Source: a virus | IMG/VR virus record: IMGVR_UViG_3300043392_000007 | Location: 1-36,960 of that record | Strand: one strand, 5' to 3' | DNA length: 36,960 nucleotides | Shown here: piece by piece, positions 671-36,332 of the stretch | Layout of the letters: each line of letters begins with the position of its first letter | Position numbering within the stretch: position 1 is the first letter of the stretch | Notes under the pieces: model-generated | Seen by the model: only the letters and a program-made list of their open reading frames with translations | Told to the model about the DNA's origin: nothing | Databases searched by the model: none | Position numbers and translations under genes: made by a program

Positions 671-692
671 ACGGGGCCGCTGGCCCCGTTTT
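671..692. terminator. Bidirectional intrinsic terminator between convergent genes
   Basis: An 8-bp perfect stem (671-678 with 682-689, ACGGGGCC/GGCCCCGT) closes a 3-nt loop. It is followed by T residues on the + strand and by a run of T on the - strand (the A-run at 666-671). It lies exactly between the + gene ending at 667 and the - gene ending at 692, so it can stop transcription from both sides. Confidence 0.88.
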
Positions 693-3190
693 CATTCGTC
701 CATGTCCGGGGTGTACCCCTTGACCAGCTTACGCTCGTAGCCCTTCTCGTAGGCATGGCGGTAGATGTAATCGGCGTGGCGCTGCTTGGCCTTGATGACC
801 TTCTCGCGGTACGCCTTGAACATGGCAGGCAGACTCGGGTTAATGGCCCACAGAACCCGCTTCTTGTGCAGTTCGTTTTCCACCTGCACCACCCAGCCAG
901 CTTGCTCGAGCACCAGCATGGCGTCCATGACCGCCTGATCCTTCTGCCAGTCGGTCTTGCCCTCCAGCGGCCTGCGGGCTGACTTCTTCAAGGTGCGCAG
1001 GTCGATGGTCTGGGCATCTCCGCTGATCTGGATGATGTGGTCAATCACCCACTGGTCGAAGTCGTTCGTGATGGCCCCGCCCACCTCACCCAGTGCGTAG
1101 CGGTACGCCGGGATCACGTAGCCACGGATCAGACTCACGACCCTGTGGACAACCTCGGCCTGCACCGTGGGCATGAAGGGTGACTCGATGATGTGGAACA
1201 GCAGGATCAAACGGCCAGCCAAGCCCTCCAGTTTGCCGAATGCCGTCATGTATTCGGTGCCGCTGTCCAGCACTCGCTCGTCCTGTTTGGCCTCCTCGTA
1301 CCATGCTTGGAACTCGCGAAAAGCTGTGAATGCTTCTGTGGACAAGTGGTAGGTCTGGGGTGGCAGCGCGTAGGTCAGGCGCAGGGTGTTCTCCCAAGCT
1401 GCCGCGCTGGTCATGTACTCGGGGATCGGGTGGCCCAGCTTGGTCTTGCGGGCACGAAGGATGGCGGGTATAAACCGCTGCAACAGGCCATCCGCTGCGA
1501 GAGAGGCCAAGTTTTGCCTGAACACTTGGGGCTGGATGTTTCCGTAGATGCTCACGGCCAAGTTCTCGCAGTAGATCGACCCCGCGCCCACCCGGTCCAT
1601 CTCGTAGTGTTCTGACTCGTAGCTGACAACCCATGCCGAGCGATCCTCGCCGCTGGTCTTGTCCGTCAGCTTGCGCACCCATGAGTTCATCTCGTCGAGG
1701 TGGCACAGCAGGCCGCGAGGTCGGTCTGCCGCTTGGCGCACCAGTTTCTGACTCGTGATGTCGCTGACCGTGATCTTGAGCGGCACGGGCTGCGGCGGCA
1801 TCTCGGGCACCGTGGGCGCTTGGTCACCGCCCAGCATGGCCTCGGGGCTGGCTGAGAATTCGAGGAATGCCTTTTTGGCGCTGGCGTAGGCCGCTTCCTT
1901 GCCCTCCCAGTCCAGCAGTTCCTTGCCGTAGCGAGGCCGGTCCTCGGCCTCGATGTTCTTAAGCGGGGACAGCATCGGCCGGGAGCCGGGGGACTTCTTG
2001 TCCGCTGGGTCACCGAGGGTCATGAGCCACAGCACTGGCGGCACACGGAAACCCGGCATGAGTTCGAGCCGGATGCGGGCGTCAACCACCCCGCAGACAG
2101 CGGCCAACCCAGCGAACAAAGGGACCAAAGGGTCGCAGCCCACGCTTTCGCTGATCTCAAGGGATCGCTGGCGCAGGGTGGCGGGCCACAGGTCCATGTT
2201 CATCTCGGGTGGCTTGGGGCGCAGCCCGTCAATCACGTCCAGCGGCTCCATGACCGGGATGGCGACCTTGCTGAACAACTCGGACGCATCGGGGATCGGG
2301 CGGCTCCAGCCGTGCTGGCGGGCAATATGGAACAGGGTGCCCAACTTGACAGCGGTAGCCTTGTCCGGCTTGAACGACATCCACTGCGTCAGGATTTCCC
2401 GCTCCCCGGGGTACTTGAACTGGGCAGTCGAGGACCACTCGTTCCACAGTTGCAGCCCCTGCTCAAGCTGACTGGTCTGGGTGCCTGCCCAGTGCAGGGC
2501 CATGCCGATGGACACCCACTCGTCGCGGGAACAGTCAGCGGGCACAGCGTCGAGGGCTTGCCTGATCTCCTCCCACGAGGCGTCGATCACCCCGTCGTGT
2601 GAAATGTTTCGCTCTTTTTCTTTCTCCAGAAAGCCCTGCCACACGTCCAGCAGCGCCTGCGGGATCACCGGCAAACGGGTCCAGTGACCTTTGCCTGCCC
2701 AGTGGTAGGGCTGGCGTGTCTCGGGGTGAATACTCGGGGGCAGCACGTCCTGCACCGTGAGGCCGCTGACCGTGGCGCAGCGCAGTTCGTAGGCAGTGAT
2801 CCCGCTGTGCAGAATCTTTTTGGACGGCAGCGCAGCGCCAAAGGGCATCGCGTACAGCAGCTTGCCGTGTCCGGGCTTGCCCGAGTTGATGATCACCGCA
2901 TCGGGTGCATCGTAGAGGGCTTGCAGGTCGATGCCGTGCTCGGCTAGCAGACTCGTGGTGATGGTCCAGTTGTCGATGTCCAGCGCCATCGTGCCGCTGT
3001 ACGCATGGGCCAGACCAATGCCGAAGCCCGGGGGCAGATCGCCTTGAGCCTTGAGGGCGTTCTCTTTGAGGTTCCAGCCCGGGGTGCGCGGCCCCTTGGT
3101 GCCGCCCGGGATGGGCACAAGGCTCCAGCCGTGTCGGATGTATGCGTCAATGGATGCAGGATGTGGTTGCACTGTCTGGGGAGCCGTCAT
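692..3190 (-). CDS. Primase-polymerase / DUF3987 helicase fusion protein
   Basis: An 832-residue replication protein. Residues 1-180 look like the bifunctional primase-polymerase (Prim-Pol) domain: the HGWSLVPI strand, the catalytic D71-I-D73 pair and the SGKPGHGK segment (103-110) that carries the active-site histidine. Residues about 200-295 (SRDEWVSIGMALHW) resemble the PriCT-2 primase C-terminal domain. The remainder, from about residue 335, resembles DUF3987, a degenerate helicase/ATPase, with a P-loop-like segment ending in KS and a DE pair (HLDEMNSW). It would synthesise primers and open DNA at phage forks. It is alone on the minus strand, facing away from the main replication operon. 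Its ATG overlaps the stop of a 14-codon upstream ORF (ATGA). The Shine-Dalgarno sequence directly before this start is weak, so expression probably depends on coupling. Confidence 0.88.
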   Translation of the reverse strand: MTAPQTVQPHPASIDAYIRHGWSLVPIPGGTKGPRTPGWNLKENALKAQGDLPPGFGIGLAHAYSGTMALDIDNWTITTSLLAEHGIDLQALYDAPDAVIINSGKPGHGKLLYAMPFGAALPSKKILHSGITAYELRCATVSGLTVQDVLPPSIHPETRQPYHWAGKGHWTRLPVIPQALLDVWQGFLEKEKERNISHDGVIDASWEEIRQALDAVPADCSRDEWVSIGMALHWAGTQTSQLEQGLQLWNEWSSTAQFKYPGEREILTQWMSFKPDKATAVKLGTLFHIARQHGWSRPIPDASELFSKVAIPVMEPLDVIDGLRPKPPEMNMDLWPATLRQRSLEISESVGCDPLVPLFAGLAAVCGVVDARIRLELMPGFRVPPVLWLMTLGDPADKKSPGSRPMLSPLKNIEAEDRPRYGKELLDWEGKEAAYASAKKAFLEFSASPEAMLGGDQAPTVPEMPPQPVPLKITVSDITSQKLVRQAADRPRGLLCHLDEMNSWVRKLTDKTSGEDRSAWVVSYESEHYEMDRVGAGSIYCENLAVSIYGNIQPQVFRQNLASLAADGLLQRFIPAILRARKTKLGHPIPEYMTSAAAWENTLRLTYALPPQTYHLSTEAFTAFREFQAWYEEAKQDERVLDSGTEYMTAFGKLEGLAGRLILLFHIIESPFMPTVQAEVVHRVVSLIRGYVIPAYRYALGEVGGAITNDFDQWVIDHIIQISGDAQTIDLRTLKKSARRPLEGKTDWQKDQAVMDAMLVLEQAGWVVQVENELHKKRVLWAINPSLPAMFKAYREKVIKAKQRHADYIYRHAYEKGYERKLVKGYTPDMDE

Positions 3191-3369: not shown

Positions 3370-3579
3370 ATGATCCCCATCAACAAATCAGCGTACTTGA
3401 CTGTCCGAGTGTCAGACAAGACGCGCACCAAGTTCCACGCCAAGGCCAGAAAGTTCGGGACACCGAGCGAGGTCTTGCGTGAACTCGTTGACGCTTTCAT
3501 CGAAGATCGCGTCACTATTCAACCCCCTGTAACCGGTAATCCCAAGGAGAAACTCTATGTCCCTCGAAGCGAAAATTGA
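3370..3579 (+). CDS. Ribbon-helix-helix (CopG/Arc-like) DNA-binding protein
   Basis: A 69-residue protein whose first 47 residues match the ribbon-helix-helix layout. A short strand with alternating residues (YLTVRVS, 9-15) would insert in the DNA major groove as a dimer. It is followed by a first helix (16-28), a Gly turn at 30 and a second helix beginning with the typical TPSEVLRELV pattern. The C-terminal 20 residues are Pro/Lys-rich and extended. It is the first gene of the replication operon, just downstream of a palindrome in overlapping promoters, which suggests an autoregulator. No strong Shine-Dalgarno sequence precedes the ATG. Its 3' end overlaps the next start by 23 bp. Confidence 0.68.
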   Translation: MIPINKSAYLTVRVSDKTRTKFHAKARKFGTPSEVLRELVDAFIEDRVTIQPPVTGNPKEKLYVPRSEN

Positions 3580-8617: not shown

Positions 8618-8885
8618 AGCCAAGGTCTGCGACTATGCCAAGTCCAAGGGTGTGCTGGCGTACAAGTTCACCAGCCCCGCCCGCGCCGCTGTGCCTGATC
8701 GTCTGTTCATCGGACCCGATGGGCGCATGTGGTTTTGCGAGTTCAAGCGCAAGGGTCAAGTGCCCACGCCAGCGCAGTACCGTGAGCACGACAGGCTTCG
8801 GCAGCAGATGGTCAACGTGTTCGTCATCGACAACGTGACCGAAGGCAAATTGATGATTGACGTGATGGTGATGGGGGCTGTATGA
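8598..8885 (+). CDS. VRR-NUC domain nuclease
   Basis: A 95-residue stand-alone VRR-NUC domain, a PD-(D/E)XK nuclease whose relatives (including the FAN1 catalytic domain and phage enzymes) cut branched or junction DNA. Visible elements are the N-terminal helix with E3, K23 in the YKF strand, P33-D34-R-L, the E48-F-K50 catalytic pair and Q60 in PTPAQ. The size equals that of other single-domain phage members, which act as oligomers. Its position between DUF3310 and the helicase suggests a job in resolving replication intermediates. The start has GGAGAG upstream, and its end overlaps the HNH gene (ATGA). Confidence 0.92.
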   Translation: MLEKQIEAKVCDYAKSKGVLAYKFTSPARAAVPDRLFIGPDGRMWFCEFKRKGQVPTPAQYREHDRLRQQMVNVFVIDNVTEGKLMIDVMVMGAV

Positions 8886-9376
8886 CTGAGTGGCGAGACA
8901 TCCCGGGCTTCGACATGTACGAAGTAAACGCTGAGGGTCAGGTGCGCCGAAAAGCGCAAATCCTCAAACCCGGTTCCATCCCAACAGGTCATCTGACTGT
9001 TGCCTTGTGCCGGGGCAAAGGGAAGCCGAAAAGCATGTACGTGCATCGCTTGGTTGCTCAAGCCTTCATCGACAACCCTGAAAACAAGCCCCTTGTGAAT
9101 CACAAGAACGGCAACCCAAAAGATAACCGACTCGACAACCTTGAGTGGGCAACTTATTCAGAAAACATTGCACACGGATACCAAAGCAATGGACGCCGCG
9201 CTACACATGAACTGAAGGTGATCGCCGTTGACGACAACGGTGAACTTGTCATGTCGTTTCGCAGTGGTGCGGATGCAGCCAAGATGCTGAATGTCACCAC
9301 TGCTGCTATTTGGTCGGCAATCAGACGCAACGGTAAGTGTGCAGGATACAGGTGGATTCGACATGCTGACTCCTGA
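8882..9376 (+). CDS. HNH homing endonuclease with NUMOD motifs
   Basis: A 164-residue free-standing HNH endonuclease. Residues 2-45 match the NUMOD4 DNA-binding motif (EWRDIPGFDMYEVNAEGQVRR). Residues 50-92 hold the HNH core: H55 in VHRLVAQAF, then VNHKNGNPKDNRLDNLEW with H74 and N82/N86. The C-terminal part (ADAAKMLNVTTAAIWSAIRRN) resembles the NUMOD1-type helix-turn-helix that positions the enzyme on its target. Such genes spread by cutting alleles that lack them. It sits between VRR-NUC and the helicase, overlapping both by a few bases, as if inserted neatly into a tight operon. No intron or intein features surround it. Confidence 0.92.
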   Translation: MTEWRDIPGFDMYEVNAEGQVRRKAQILKPGSIPTGHLTVALCRGKGKPKSMYVHRLVAQAFIDNPENKPLVNHKNGNPKDNRLDNLEWATYSENIAHGYQSNGRRATHELKVIAVDDNGELVMSFRSGADAAKMLNVTTAAIWSAIRRNGKCAGYRWIRHADS

Positions 9377-32136: not shown

Positions 32137-32354
32137 CAGTCGTTCTCCGTTTCAGCCAACACCGACGAAACGCGCAGATCAGCCAACCATTTGTCGGGCG
32201 CATCACGAAAACACGGATCGCGTTGCTCAAGAATAGACAGCGCCATTTCCAACCCATTGAATAGACCCTGCATGTACGGGTCAAAGTTCCATGTGCCGTC
32301 ACGACCCTGTACATCCCGCAAATCACGAATCTGCTGAATCAGTTTGTCACTCAT
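32136..32354 (-). CDS. Small conserved protein between the terminase subunits, 72 aa
   Basis: A 72-residue protein beginning MSDKLIQQIRDLRD, with DGTWNFDPYMQGLFNGLEMALSI and a C-terminal KWLADLR segment. I recognise the WNFDPYMxGxxNG pattern from phage proteins encoded near terminase, of unknown role. ATG 32354 has GGAG seven bases upstream and is preferred over a GTG one codon earlier. It overlaps the small-subunit gene and touches the large-subunit start, so all three are coupled. Confidence 0.72.
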   Translation of the reverse strand: MSDKLIQQIRDLRDVQGRDGTWNFDPYMQGLFNGLEMALSILEQRDPCFRDAPDKWLADLRVSSVLAETEND

Positions 32355-32916
32355 CACTGTTCTCCAGTCTCGGGGTCACATCGACCACCTCTGCCTCAAT
32401 CACCCGGGCCTGAGCCTGCGCCAGCGCCTCAGTGATCGAGATCGTCCCGCCCAACTCGATCTGCTTGGTTTCCCCGTAGCGTTTCTTGTTGTGGGCGCTC
32501 ATGAGCCACTTGCGCGTGTCGATGCGCAGTTTGTCGCGGTTGACCGTATCACTCGATGACGGATCAATCGCACCCACGCCATCGGCAATCTCTAGGATTT
32601 CCCCGGCGATGAACTCGGTGCGCATCTCCTGCGCTTCTTTGAATCGCTCGTGACGTTGGGGGTCGCGCTTGACCCAGCGCAGGAAGTCCTCGTAGGACTG
32701 GACCCGGTGGTCATCTTCGATCAACGATTGAAGGGATCGGCCGCGATAGATGTCCTCGATCACCCGCTCGAAGATTTGCTCGTATTCGAGGTGCAGCAGT
32801 TCACGCGCCGATTTTGAGGGGCGCGGGGGCTTGGGGTCTGGGCACGACAGCCAGTTTGGGAGTGGGGTTTCACCGGTGACAACCGTGCCTAGGGAATGGG
32901 TGTTGCCTTGTTCCAT
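32347..32916 (-). CDS. Terminase small subunit
   Basis: A 189-residue protein, first gene of the leftward late operon. The central part (ERVIEDIYRGRSLQSLIEDD) looks like the DNA-binding helix-turn-helix, followed by a helical oligomerisation region. The segment RKWLMSAHNKKRYGETKQIELGG is characteristic of phage small terminase subunits. It recognises the packaging site and recruits the large subunit. No Shine-Dalgarno sequence precedes the ATG, and the predicted promoter would put the transcript start only a few bases upstream. Confidence 0.83.
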   Translation of the reverse strand: MEQGNTHSLGTVVTGETPLPNWLSCPDPKPPRPSKSARELLHLEYEQIFERVIEDIYRGRSLQSLIEDDHRVQSYEDFLRWVKRDPQRHERFKEAQEMRTEFIAGEILEIADGVGAIDPSSSDTVNRDKLRIDTRKWLMSAHNKKRYGETKQIELGGTISITEALAQAQARVIEAEVVDVTPRLENSDE

Positions 32917-32926
32917 AGTGAGGGGA

Positions 32927-32956
32927 AGTGTAATGGATATTGAATCGGTGTGTCTA
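32927..32956 (-). promoter_or_regulatory. Candidate leftward late promoter (terminase operon)
   Basis: On the minus strand, TAGACA (32956-32951), an 18-bp spacer and TACACT (32932-32927) resemble a sigma-70 promoter; the same -10 core occurs before 3370 and 11257. A palindrome copy (32960-32970) ends four bases upstream of the -35, where an activator might sit. The predicted start lies only about 4 bases before the terminase ATG. Confidence 0.42.
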
Positions 32957-32959
32957 GTG

Positions 32960-32970
32960 ACCCATTGGGT
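32960..32970. repeat. Palindrome copy 1, ACCCATTGGGT
   Basis: Perfect ACCCA/TGGGT arms with a T at the centre; one base different from the other copies, at the centre only. Just upstream of the candidate late promoter. Confidence 0.7.
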
Positions 32971-33165
32971 TTTTGATTTTTGAAAAAAATTTCACGGGTT
33001 CTGTGATGCCGCCCCGTCAATGACCCACCGGCTCTCGGCCCTCCCCCGCCCCCTCGAACCCAGCGCCGCCGCACCGGCGAGGCCGAGCGCCACCGGCCAC
33101 CGCGCCGCCCGGGTGCCCGCCGCACCCCGGCGGCACCGAGCACCACGGGCACCCACGGGGTGCGC

Positions 33166-33176
33166 ACCCAGTGGGT
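33166..33176. repeat. Palindrome copy 2, ACCCAGTGGGT
   Basis: Exact copy of the consensus, at the right edge of the GC-rich block. Confidence 0.75.
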
Positions 33177-33256
33177 GACATTGCCCCCGGTGACAACGGT
33201 GACAAACCCCCGTTTCAGTTGTCCCCAGTGTGCAACATTGAAAACAGGCACTTTTG

Positions 33257-33267
33257 CCCCAGTGGGT
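33257..33267. repeat. Palindrome copy 3, CCCCAGTGGGT
   Basis: One mismatch in the first base of the left arm; the right arm is intact. Confidence 0.65.
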
Positions 33268-33331
33268 TAAGGGATTGCATGAAAAGCCGGGGGAATTCCC
33301 CAGAAACCGGGGGAAAACCGGGCAAAGGGGC

Positions 33332-33342
33332 ACCCAGTGGGT
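33332..33342. repeat. Palindrome copy 4, ACCCAGTGGGT
   Basis: Exact copy of the consensus, followed by CAT, in non-coding sequence. Confidence 0.75.
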
Positions 33343-33508
33343 CATGGTTCAGGGTTCAGGCGCTTACGATGACAAAAGGCCCTTTCGCGCACAGGAGGCG
33401 TTTAGTAGAGTACTTTTCGAAAGGCACTTATTTTCCGGATTTTCCAAAATGCACCCCCAGAAACAAAAGGGTCAATTGTCACCGGGGCATCACATGCACC
33501 ATCACCGC

Positions 33509-33519
33509 ACCCAGTGGGT
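33509..33519. repeat. Palindrome copy 5, ACCCAGTGGGT
   Basis: Exact copy, 60 bp centre-to-centre from the promoter copy. Confidence 0.75.
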
Positions 33520-33556
33520 CAGGGAAAACACCTAGAATATTTTTTCACCGTACCTC

Positions 33557-33585
33557 TTGACAATGGGCACCCAGTGGGTTACATT
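33557..33585 (+). promoter_or_regulatory. Consensus rightward promoter with operator in its spacer (palindrome copy 6)
   Basis: TTGACA (33557-33562), an exact 17-bp spacer and TACATT (33580-33585). The palindrome ACCCAGTGGGT at 33569-33579 occupies the spacer and abuts the -10, so a bound protein would exclude RNA polymerase. Transcription would start near 33592, about 30 bp before the first small gene. Confidence 0.72.
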
Positions 33586-33594
33586 TATATCACC

Positions 33595-33625
33595 GTAACC
33601 CGTAACCGAAAGGAAAGACACCATG
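33595..33625 (+). promoter_or_regulatory. GTAACC-repeat leader and strong ribosome-binding site
   Basis: Two GTAACC units (33595, 33602) precede GAAAGGAAAG and the ATG at 33623. The same units return as two copies before 33869 and three copies before 34041. A leader RNA motif repeated so regularly may be a protein-binding or structural element. Confidence 0.5.
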
Positions 33626-33808
33626 ACAAAGATTCAAGCCCGCGAGATTGCCACCGCTCAAAAGTACATCACCCTCGGCATGATTGACACCGCCGCCCGC
33701 TCGGTGTCTGCCCTGATCCGCTCGGCCATGCGGGCAAAGGATGCCGCCGAGCTTCGCGCCTTTGCCGAGGCCCACGGCCTGACAAAGCACCCTGAATTCA
33801 TCGCCTGA
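33623..33808 (+). CDS. Small helical protein, 61 aa
   Basis: First gene of the right-hand small-gene operon, driven by the consensus promoter. It encodes a basic, all-helical 61-residue protein (MTKIQAREIATAQKYITLGM; AARSVSALIRSAMRAKDAAELRAFAEAHGL). No family is recognised. The protein could be an early host-takeover factor, judged only by position and size. A GC hairpin with a GAAA loop follows at 33816. Confidence 0.68.
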   Translation: MTKIQAREIATAQKYITLGMIDTAARSVSALIRSAMRAKDAAELRAFAEAHGLTKHPEFIA

Positions 33809-33835: not shown

Positions 33836-33868
33836 ACCCCGTAACCGTAACCCCTGAAAGGATCAACC

Positions 33869-35975: not shown

Positions 35976-36332
35976 ATGAACACCGCACCCGATACACCCG
36001 CCGCCACCGCGCAACCCGCCCCCAGTGCCCCCGAGGCACCCGAGGCACCCGCCGCACCCCTGACCCCCGCCGGGGCCTTTGCCGCCACCCTCGCCGGGTT
36101 CATGGCCCGCCGGGGCCTCGATGAAACCGCCGCCGCCGGGTTGCTGGGGGTGCCGGTGTTCACCTTGCGCAAGTGGACCGGGGGCACCCGGGCACCGAGC
36201 GCCGCCGCCGTGCGGTTGCTTGACGTGCTCGGGGTGCTCGAGGCCCTCGCGCCGCCAGTGCTCGACGCGCTGACGCCGCCGCCCACCGCCCCCAAGCGGC
36301 CCCGGGGACGACCGAAAGCCAAAGCTGACTAA
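35976..36332 (+). CDS. HTH protein with Ala/Pro-rich N-terminus and C-terminal AT-hook
   Basis: A 118-residue DNA-binding candidate. Residues 1-32 are an Ala/Pro/Glu-rich tail. Residues 35-90 match a helix-turn-helix of the XRE/antitoxin-like type (FMARRGLDETAAAGLLGVPVFTLRKWTGGTRAPSAAAVRLLDVL). Residues 107-114 (KRPRGRPK) form a classical AT-hook that grips AT-rich minor grooves. It has the standard leader but follows a strong terminator, so its level may be set by read-through. It is a candidate binder of the 11-bp palindromes or the AT-rich tract of the control region, by context only. Confidence 0.7.
   Translation: MNTAPDTPAATAQPAPSAPEAPEAPAAPLTPAGAFAATLAGFMARRGLDETAAAGLLGVPVFTLRKWTGGTRAPSAAAVRLLDVLGVLEALAPPVLDALTPPPTAPKRPRGRPKAKAD

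Follow-up and report, generated by a model that had tools for sequence, protein, structure and literature searches.

For the great majority of uncultured phages, the control of early and late genes is unknown. The question is raised here by a short palindrome repeated in the only large divergent non-coding gap of a 36,960-base sequence from an apparently lytic freshwater phage (IMG/VR record IMGVR_UViG_3300043392_000007; this whole stretch is called the window below): which protein would bind these repeats, and which promoters would it control? The gap separates a leftward late operon, starting with the terminase small subunit gene (TerS, start at 32916), from a rightward operon of small genes (start at 33623), and no credible gene was found between the two. 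The features to which we refer are the following.

32347-32916, minus strand: TerS (terminase small subunit), gene 1 of the leftward late operon (phrog_1482 match, 9.8e-25)
32927-32956, minus strand: candidate leftward late promoter, with a weak -35 TAGACA (32951-32956), an 18-bp spacer and a -10 TACACT (32927-32932)
32960-32970: array site 1, ACCCATTGGGT, adjoining the leftward late promoter; its centre lies at 49 bp from the TerS ATG and at 33 bp from the -10
32971-32995: A/T-rich tract next to site 1 and upstream of the late promoter, conserved, and present also in relatives lacking the array
33166-33176: array site 2, ACCCAGTGGGT
33257-33267: array site 3, the variant CCCCAGTGGGT
33332-33342: array site 4, which brackets the 111-bp element on the left (33 bp between site centre and element edge)
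33370-33482: DNA element of about 111 bp whose ends are inverted (TGACA/TGTCA), conserved in 80 of 86 relatives
33509-33519: array site 5, which brackets the 111-bp element on the right (33 bp between site centre and element edge)
33557-33585, plus strand: candidate rightward early promoter, TTGACA (33557-33562), 17-bp spacer, -10 TACATT (33580-33585)
33569-33579: array site 6, at the end of the rightward promoter spacer and abutting its -10
33623-33808, plus strand: first gene of the rightward small-gene operon, which has the HTH gene further along
35976-36332, plus strand: XRE/HTH_31-like protein with an AT-hook-like C-terminal KRPRGRP, predicted to bind the array

Counted over the window, the exact palindrome ACCCANTGGGT is present in five copies, all within 32960-33579 (starts at 32960, with centre T, 33166, 33332, 33509 and 33569, with centre G), whereas dinucleotide shuffles of the window contained on average 0.02 copies and at most 1. 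Together with the near copy CCCCAGTGGGT at 33257, this establishes as real the six-copy array reported in a preliminary description of this DNA. That description had noticed no further copy in the window, which holds for the exact palindrome but not for one-mismatch copies, a few of which lie outside the array.

The array is conserved. In the nearest annotated phage, DSL-LC05 (OR003940), a lake metagenome assembly whose lifestyle is predicted to be virulent, the gap carries the array at corresponding places, including TTGACA-[ATCTGACCCAGTGGGT]-TAGAAT. A pattern scan of IMG/VR returned 59 contigs with paired sites, and a terminase scan provided 80 loci from 597 relatives; nearly all terminase-scan loci with enough sequence have the array, in the form ACCC[A/G]N[T/C]GGGT. 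Near-full-length relatives with a standard array contain 4-11 sites each, compared to 0-2 for a reversed-pattern control, and the site positions listed for near-full-length relatives mostly form a single cluster. Conservation in relatives, a check that the preliminary description had set, is thus observed in nearly all phages sharing this terminase. Concerning gene order, the Prim-Pol/DUF3987 primase of the window (692-3190) is encoded by the minus strand; in DSL-LC05, the gene annotated as primase/polymerase lies beside the same early operon and is read from the plus strand. A terminase scan of a species-genome collection for a host or prophage trace gave a single match, in a lake Gammaproteobacteria bin, and no experimental work on any of these phages was found in the literature.

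Some relatives carry something else in the same gap. In the more distant ctNMl277, whose terminase is 66% identical, the array is built from another palindrome, GTTTAYRTAAAC, and in locus L106 AAACATC/GATGTTT dyads are arranged around the early promoter in place of the ACCC array. Such substitute arrays, in loci where the HTH gene is missing, extend over 8770-9190 in L106 (AAACATC/GATGTTT) and 28230-28600 in L006 (GTTTAYRTAAAC); these two replacement arrays are apparently swapped specificity types. The terminase of L076 is 95% identical to that of the window, yet this locus has neither the array nor the HTH gene, and its control region (8640-9300) looks replaced as a block. Separately, 11 exact ACCCACTGGGT-type sites are concentrated within positions 1-2319 of the 171-kb viral contig L017, without a TerS or HTH match; the word would there have an unrelated use, or belong to a repeat.

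The distribution of the ACCC array follows that of one gene. The product of the gene at 35976, for which a helix-turn-helix/AT-hook nature had been proposed, is indeed a helix-turn-helix protein with an RGRP tail. It is 118 aa long and matches Pfam HTH_31 (PF13560) with 24.4 bits, under the gathering cut-off of 27 (E 3.6e-5). Its AlphaFold model has five helices and a mean pLDDT of 86.6, and the best structural neighbours of this model are HigA2, DdrO, C.AhdI and P2 C, all with weak E-values; an XRE-type HTH fold is predicted on this basis. A sequence search of solved structures with this protein returned no match. The gene lies 1.8-3.8 kb from the TerS start in relatives and was found in 45/45 array-bearing loci, counting unique loci that reach at least 4.5 kb past terS. 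Six loci of this length lack three strict sites: L106 and L076 are without the gene, and L074, L132, L134 and L135 have it together with altered arrays. Among near-full-length genomes it is present in 25 of 27, being absent only from L106 and ctNMl277, both with other arrays.

The recognition helix, GVPVFTLRKW with close variants, is nearly invariant where the array is standard. In L119 the helix is GVKITTWRNW and the array consists of 13 ACCCATTG sites, still placed within a TTGACA-TACACT promoter; L134 and L135 combine a GVSVFTLRHW helix with degenerate arrays. A match between helix and array is counted against by L074 and L132, where arrays are degenerate despite a standard or nearly standard helix.

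At the rightward promoter, site 33569-33579 occupies the last 11 bp of the 17-bp spacer, which bears out the earlier observation of a palindrome inside the TTGACA/TACATT spacer. The promoter is kept in most relatives, its DSL-LC05 counterpart being TTGACA-16-TAGAAT. Rightward promoters could be scored in 54 non-redundant loci. The best promoter of the locus is overlapped by a site in 40 of them, compared to 8 expected from rotation of the sites; in 36 cases the -35 starts 11 or 12 bp before the site does, and the site abuts the -10. The site centre is found 5-8 bp (52 loci), 16-17 bp (21) or 27 bp (6) before the -10, that is 79/90 loci in total, a count that includes promoters overlapping the site itself (TTGACCCANTGGGT) or with a site abutting the -35. 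As these three registers are partly set by letters shared between site and hexamer, they are not counted as independent proof of phasing; they show a core occupancy that appears to be kept while details vary. As judged from position, the predicted binder would probably repress the early promoter.

Two other elements were observed on this side of the gap. After the second-last site (33509-33538), TAGAAT followed by a T-run is present in the window and in DSL-LC05, with similar sequence in many relatives, and a second rightward promoter using the array site as its -35 region is possible there. A leader motif, CCCGTAACCGTAA(A)GGA, recurs at 33599-33611 and 33838-33850 and at the starts of early-operon genes in relatives, and may be a common ribosome-binding or leader element.

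At the leftward promoter, the site lies upstream of the promoter core and not over it. Site 1 does adjoin the candidate promoter upstream of its -35, as had been claimed, but with a gap of three bases, not four. In relatives, this promoter has a poor -35 (on average 3.7 of 6 positions, and 5 or 6 in 19%), and an extended -10 is found in 46/69. The -10 ends about 10 nt before the terS ATG (window 32916-32932; CACTATG is conserved in relatives), so the transcript would be nearly leaderless, provided that translation really begins at this ATG.

Counting from terS, the first site is located upstream of the leftward -10 in every case, at distances that change by steps. For 67 non-redundant loci, the distance from site centre to -10 is 32-33 (16 loci), 42-44 (31), 52-54 (14), 75 (1) or 86 bp (3), and two further values are odd. 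A period of 10.5-10.6 bp fits best (Rayleigh R 0.86), and none of 100,000 jittered sets equalled it. The spacers between site 1 and the promoter mostly have no sequence kinship to each other, and after merging of similar ones the phasing persisted (51 clusters, R 0.84). Mapped on a tree of terminase DNA, the spacing class underwent at least 33 changes, a count that recombination may inflate. In a hold-out set drawn from the HTH scan and screened to differ from loci already used, 21/21 new loci fell within 2 bp of 48.5 + 10.5n from the terS ATG. Loci with altered or variant motifs are on this grid too (L119 at 68, L074 at 69, L132 at 68 and L067 at 58); L073, whose closest sites are at 83 and 107 bp from the ATG, is off the grid, as is L047 (52 bp). 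Sites 2-7 are not phased to the TerS ATG (R 0.12-0.29). Looping through mutual phasing of the array sites was considered and rejected, adjacent spacings giving R 0.04.

This phasing shows what appears to be coupling on one face of the helix. A late site that moves by whole helical turns, with at least 33 changes on the tree, is hard to explain without a face-specific contact with the transcription machinery. CRP action depends on spacing in the same manner, with a step of about 10.5 bp, and by analogy with what was measured for CRP such a distance dependence is taken as the classical signature of activator contact (PMC6301791). That the late promoter is activated rather than repressed is what we infer from it. 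Alternatively, what is really phased to the promoter could be the A/T tract beside site 1.

Helical phasing extends beyond the promoter: the sites flanking the 111-bp element show it as well. This element is single-copy in the window genome in that orientation, and it is kept in relatives regardless of array type. None of 447 array sites overlaps it, and those nearest to it are phased to its edges (R 0.73 left, 0.74 right; by spacer clusters, 30 on each side, R 0.65 and 0.62). In a small hold-out the right-side distances repeated (23, 23, 34, 34, 34), and the left-side phasing was not reproduced (n=5, R 0.37). A structured RNA in the gap was rejected: no Rfam match was found in the window, and the 111-bp element has 5 pairs with almost no covariation. 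The element is a candidate origin or packaging site, and may also be something else.

From these results, we consider it probable that the HTH protein runs a two-way early/late switch, with the array as its operator region. The early rightward operon, with the HTH gene near its end, would be transcribed at once from the consensus-like promoter 33557-33585. The HTH protein would accumulate and then bind the ACCC-NNN-GGGT palindromes, presumably as a dimer. Bound to 33569-33579, it would occlude RNA polymerase and shut the early promoter, a putative autorepression; bound to 32960-32970, upstream of the weak -35, it would contact RNA polymerase on one face and presumably activate the late promoter for terminase and structural genes. 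For the middle sites, the probable role is to increase occupancy locally or to serve the 111-bp element. The preliminary description had suggested that a single dimeric protein could block the rightward promoter while freeing or activating the leftward one, and this proposal gains support from the early overlap (79/90) and from the 10.5-bp steps on the late side.

A broader reading, possible though on the whole doubtful, is that the XRE protein organises the entire gap as a nucleoprotein hub, in which early off and late on, the latter from sites locked to one helix face, would be accompanied by an action on the 111-bp element coupling the switch to replication or packaging. Operator and regulator would be swapped jointly between close relatives, giving lambda-like heteroimmune types in lytic phages.

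Several other explanations address the same observations. One is that the HTH protein only represses, at both divergent promoters, the late phasing reflecting a repressive RNA polymerase contact or a looped complex. A face-specific contact indeed leaves the sign of the effect unfixed and numerous sites could support looping, but we find this unlikely: site 1 is upstream of the late promoter core and not over it, the late -35 is weak, adjacent array sites have no mutual phasing, and there is no evident reason for a phage to keep its late genes off through its own mid-infection product. It is also rather improbable that the repeats are iterons of a replication origin, with the HTH protein as initiator or its regulator, the 111-bp element as core, the A/T tract as unwinding element and the early overlap as initiator autorepression. 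The location of the element inside the array in 80/86 relatives, free of overlapping sites and with the nearest ones phased, speaks for such an origin, as does conservation of the A/T-rich tract beside site 1. Against this, iteron spacing would be irregular (the R of 0.04 above), phasing is strongest relative to the late promoter, the early promoter core is overlapped by array sites, L106 and L076 keep the element without this HTH protein or array, and the left-side phasing is absent from the small hold-out; GC skew is uninformative here, giving no pointer to an origin. Because the conserved element sits inside the array, an origin role is kept as an additional possibility next to the switch.

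As to the identity of the binder, three candidates had been put forward: the protein at 35976 tracks the array, but the other two, a MarR-like protein (11463) and a ribbon-helix-helix (RHH) protein (3373-3579), fail. All are DNA-binding candidates and the RHH gene is widespread; however, the MarR-like gene is present in just 7/27 near-full-length relatives, the RHH gene is also found in L076 and L106, which are devoid of the array, and a host factor would leave the co-loss of array and HTH gene unexplained. Binding of the array by one of these proteins or a host factor is therefore very unlikely. We give still less credit to a packaging site (pac/cos region upstream of terS) bound by TerS itself: the array and 111-bp element do lie directly upstream of terS, but L106 and L076 have a TerS about 73-74% identical to that of the window and no such array, and the sites follow the HTH gene and promoter positions instead.

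The interest of the locus is that the natural variation among about 90 relatives constitutes a ready-made spacing experiment. It yields a named predicted regulator, a named operator and two promoters in a phage group common in environmental metagenomes, and indicates that comparative sequence alone can reveal transcription control of uncultured phages.

Among known systems, Bacillus phage phi29 offers the closest parallel in working. In PMC11476376, its p4 is described as an early product with several sites between early and late promoters; at the late promoter A3 it occupies a position upstream of RNA polymerase and stabilises the polymerase there, and it also acts at an early promoter; titles cited there indicate that p4 uses an N-hook and that it also represses one promoter through contact with RNA polymerase. 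As in the p4/A2c-A3 switch, several predicted regulator sites lie here between divergent early and late promoters. In contrast to p4, the predicted regulator is of the XRE-type HTH family with no p4 match, the operators are palindromes of 11 bp (ACCC/GGGT), replication and the type of virion are different, and the late-site distance varies in helical steps between relatives. As the regulator is of another family, we propose that it is p4-like in working and not a p4 family member.

From operators beside a -35, XRE-type regulators of the lambda and controller-protein kinds are able to repress one promoter and to activate a different one. Lambda CI/Cro (OR/OL), C.AhdI, C.Esp1396I and P2 C share with the protein studied here the XRE-type HTH, its nearest structural match, with weak E-values. 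Unlike in lambda-type immunity, no integrase or lysogeny genes are annotated in the predicted virulent DSL-LC05, the HTH gene sits within the early operon, about 2.4 kb downstream of the operators and not beside them, and the sites form a single long array of 4-11. In the stoperators of mycobacteriophage L5-type phages, a short operator is likewise present in many copies in one phage; those sites are asymmetric and scattered over the genome, whereas the sites described here are palindromic and largely confined to one gap. Finally, the steps of about 10.5 bp between site and promoter recall Class I/II CRP-dependent promoters (PMC6301791), with the differences that the protein is unrelated to CRP and that the phase emerges from natural variation rather than from engineered promoters.
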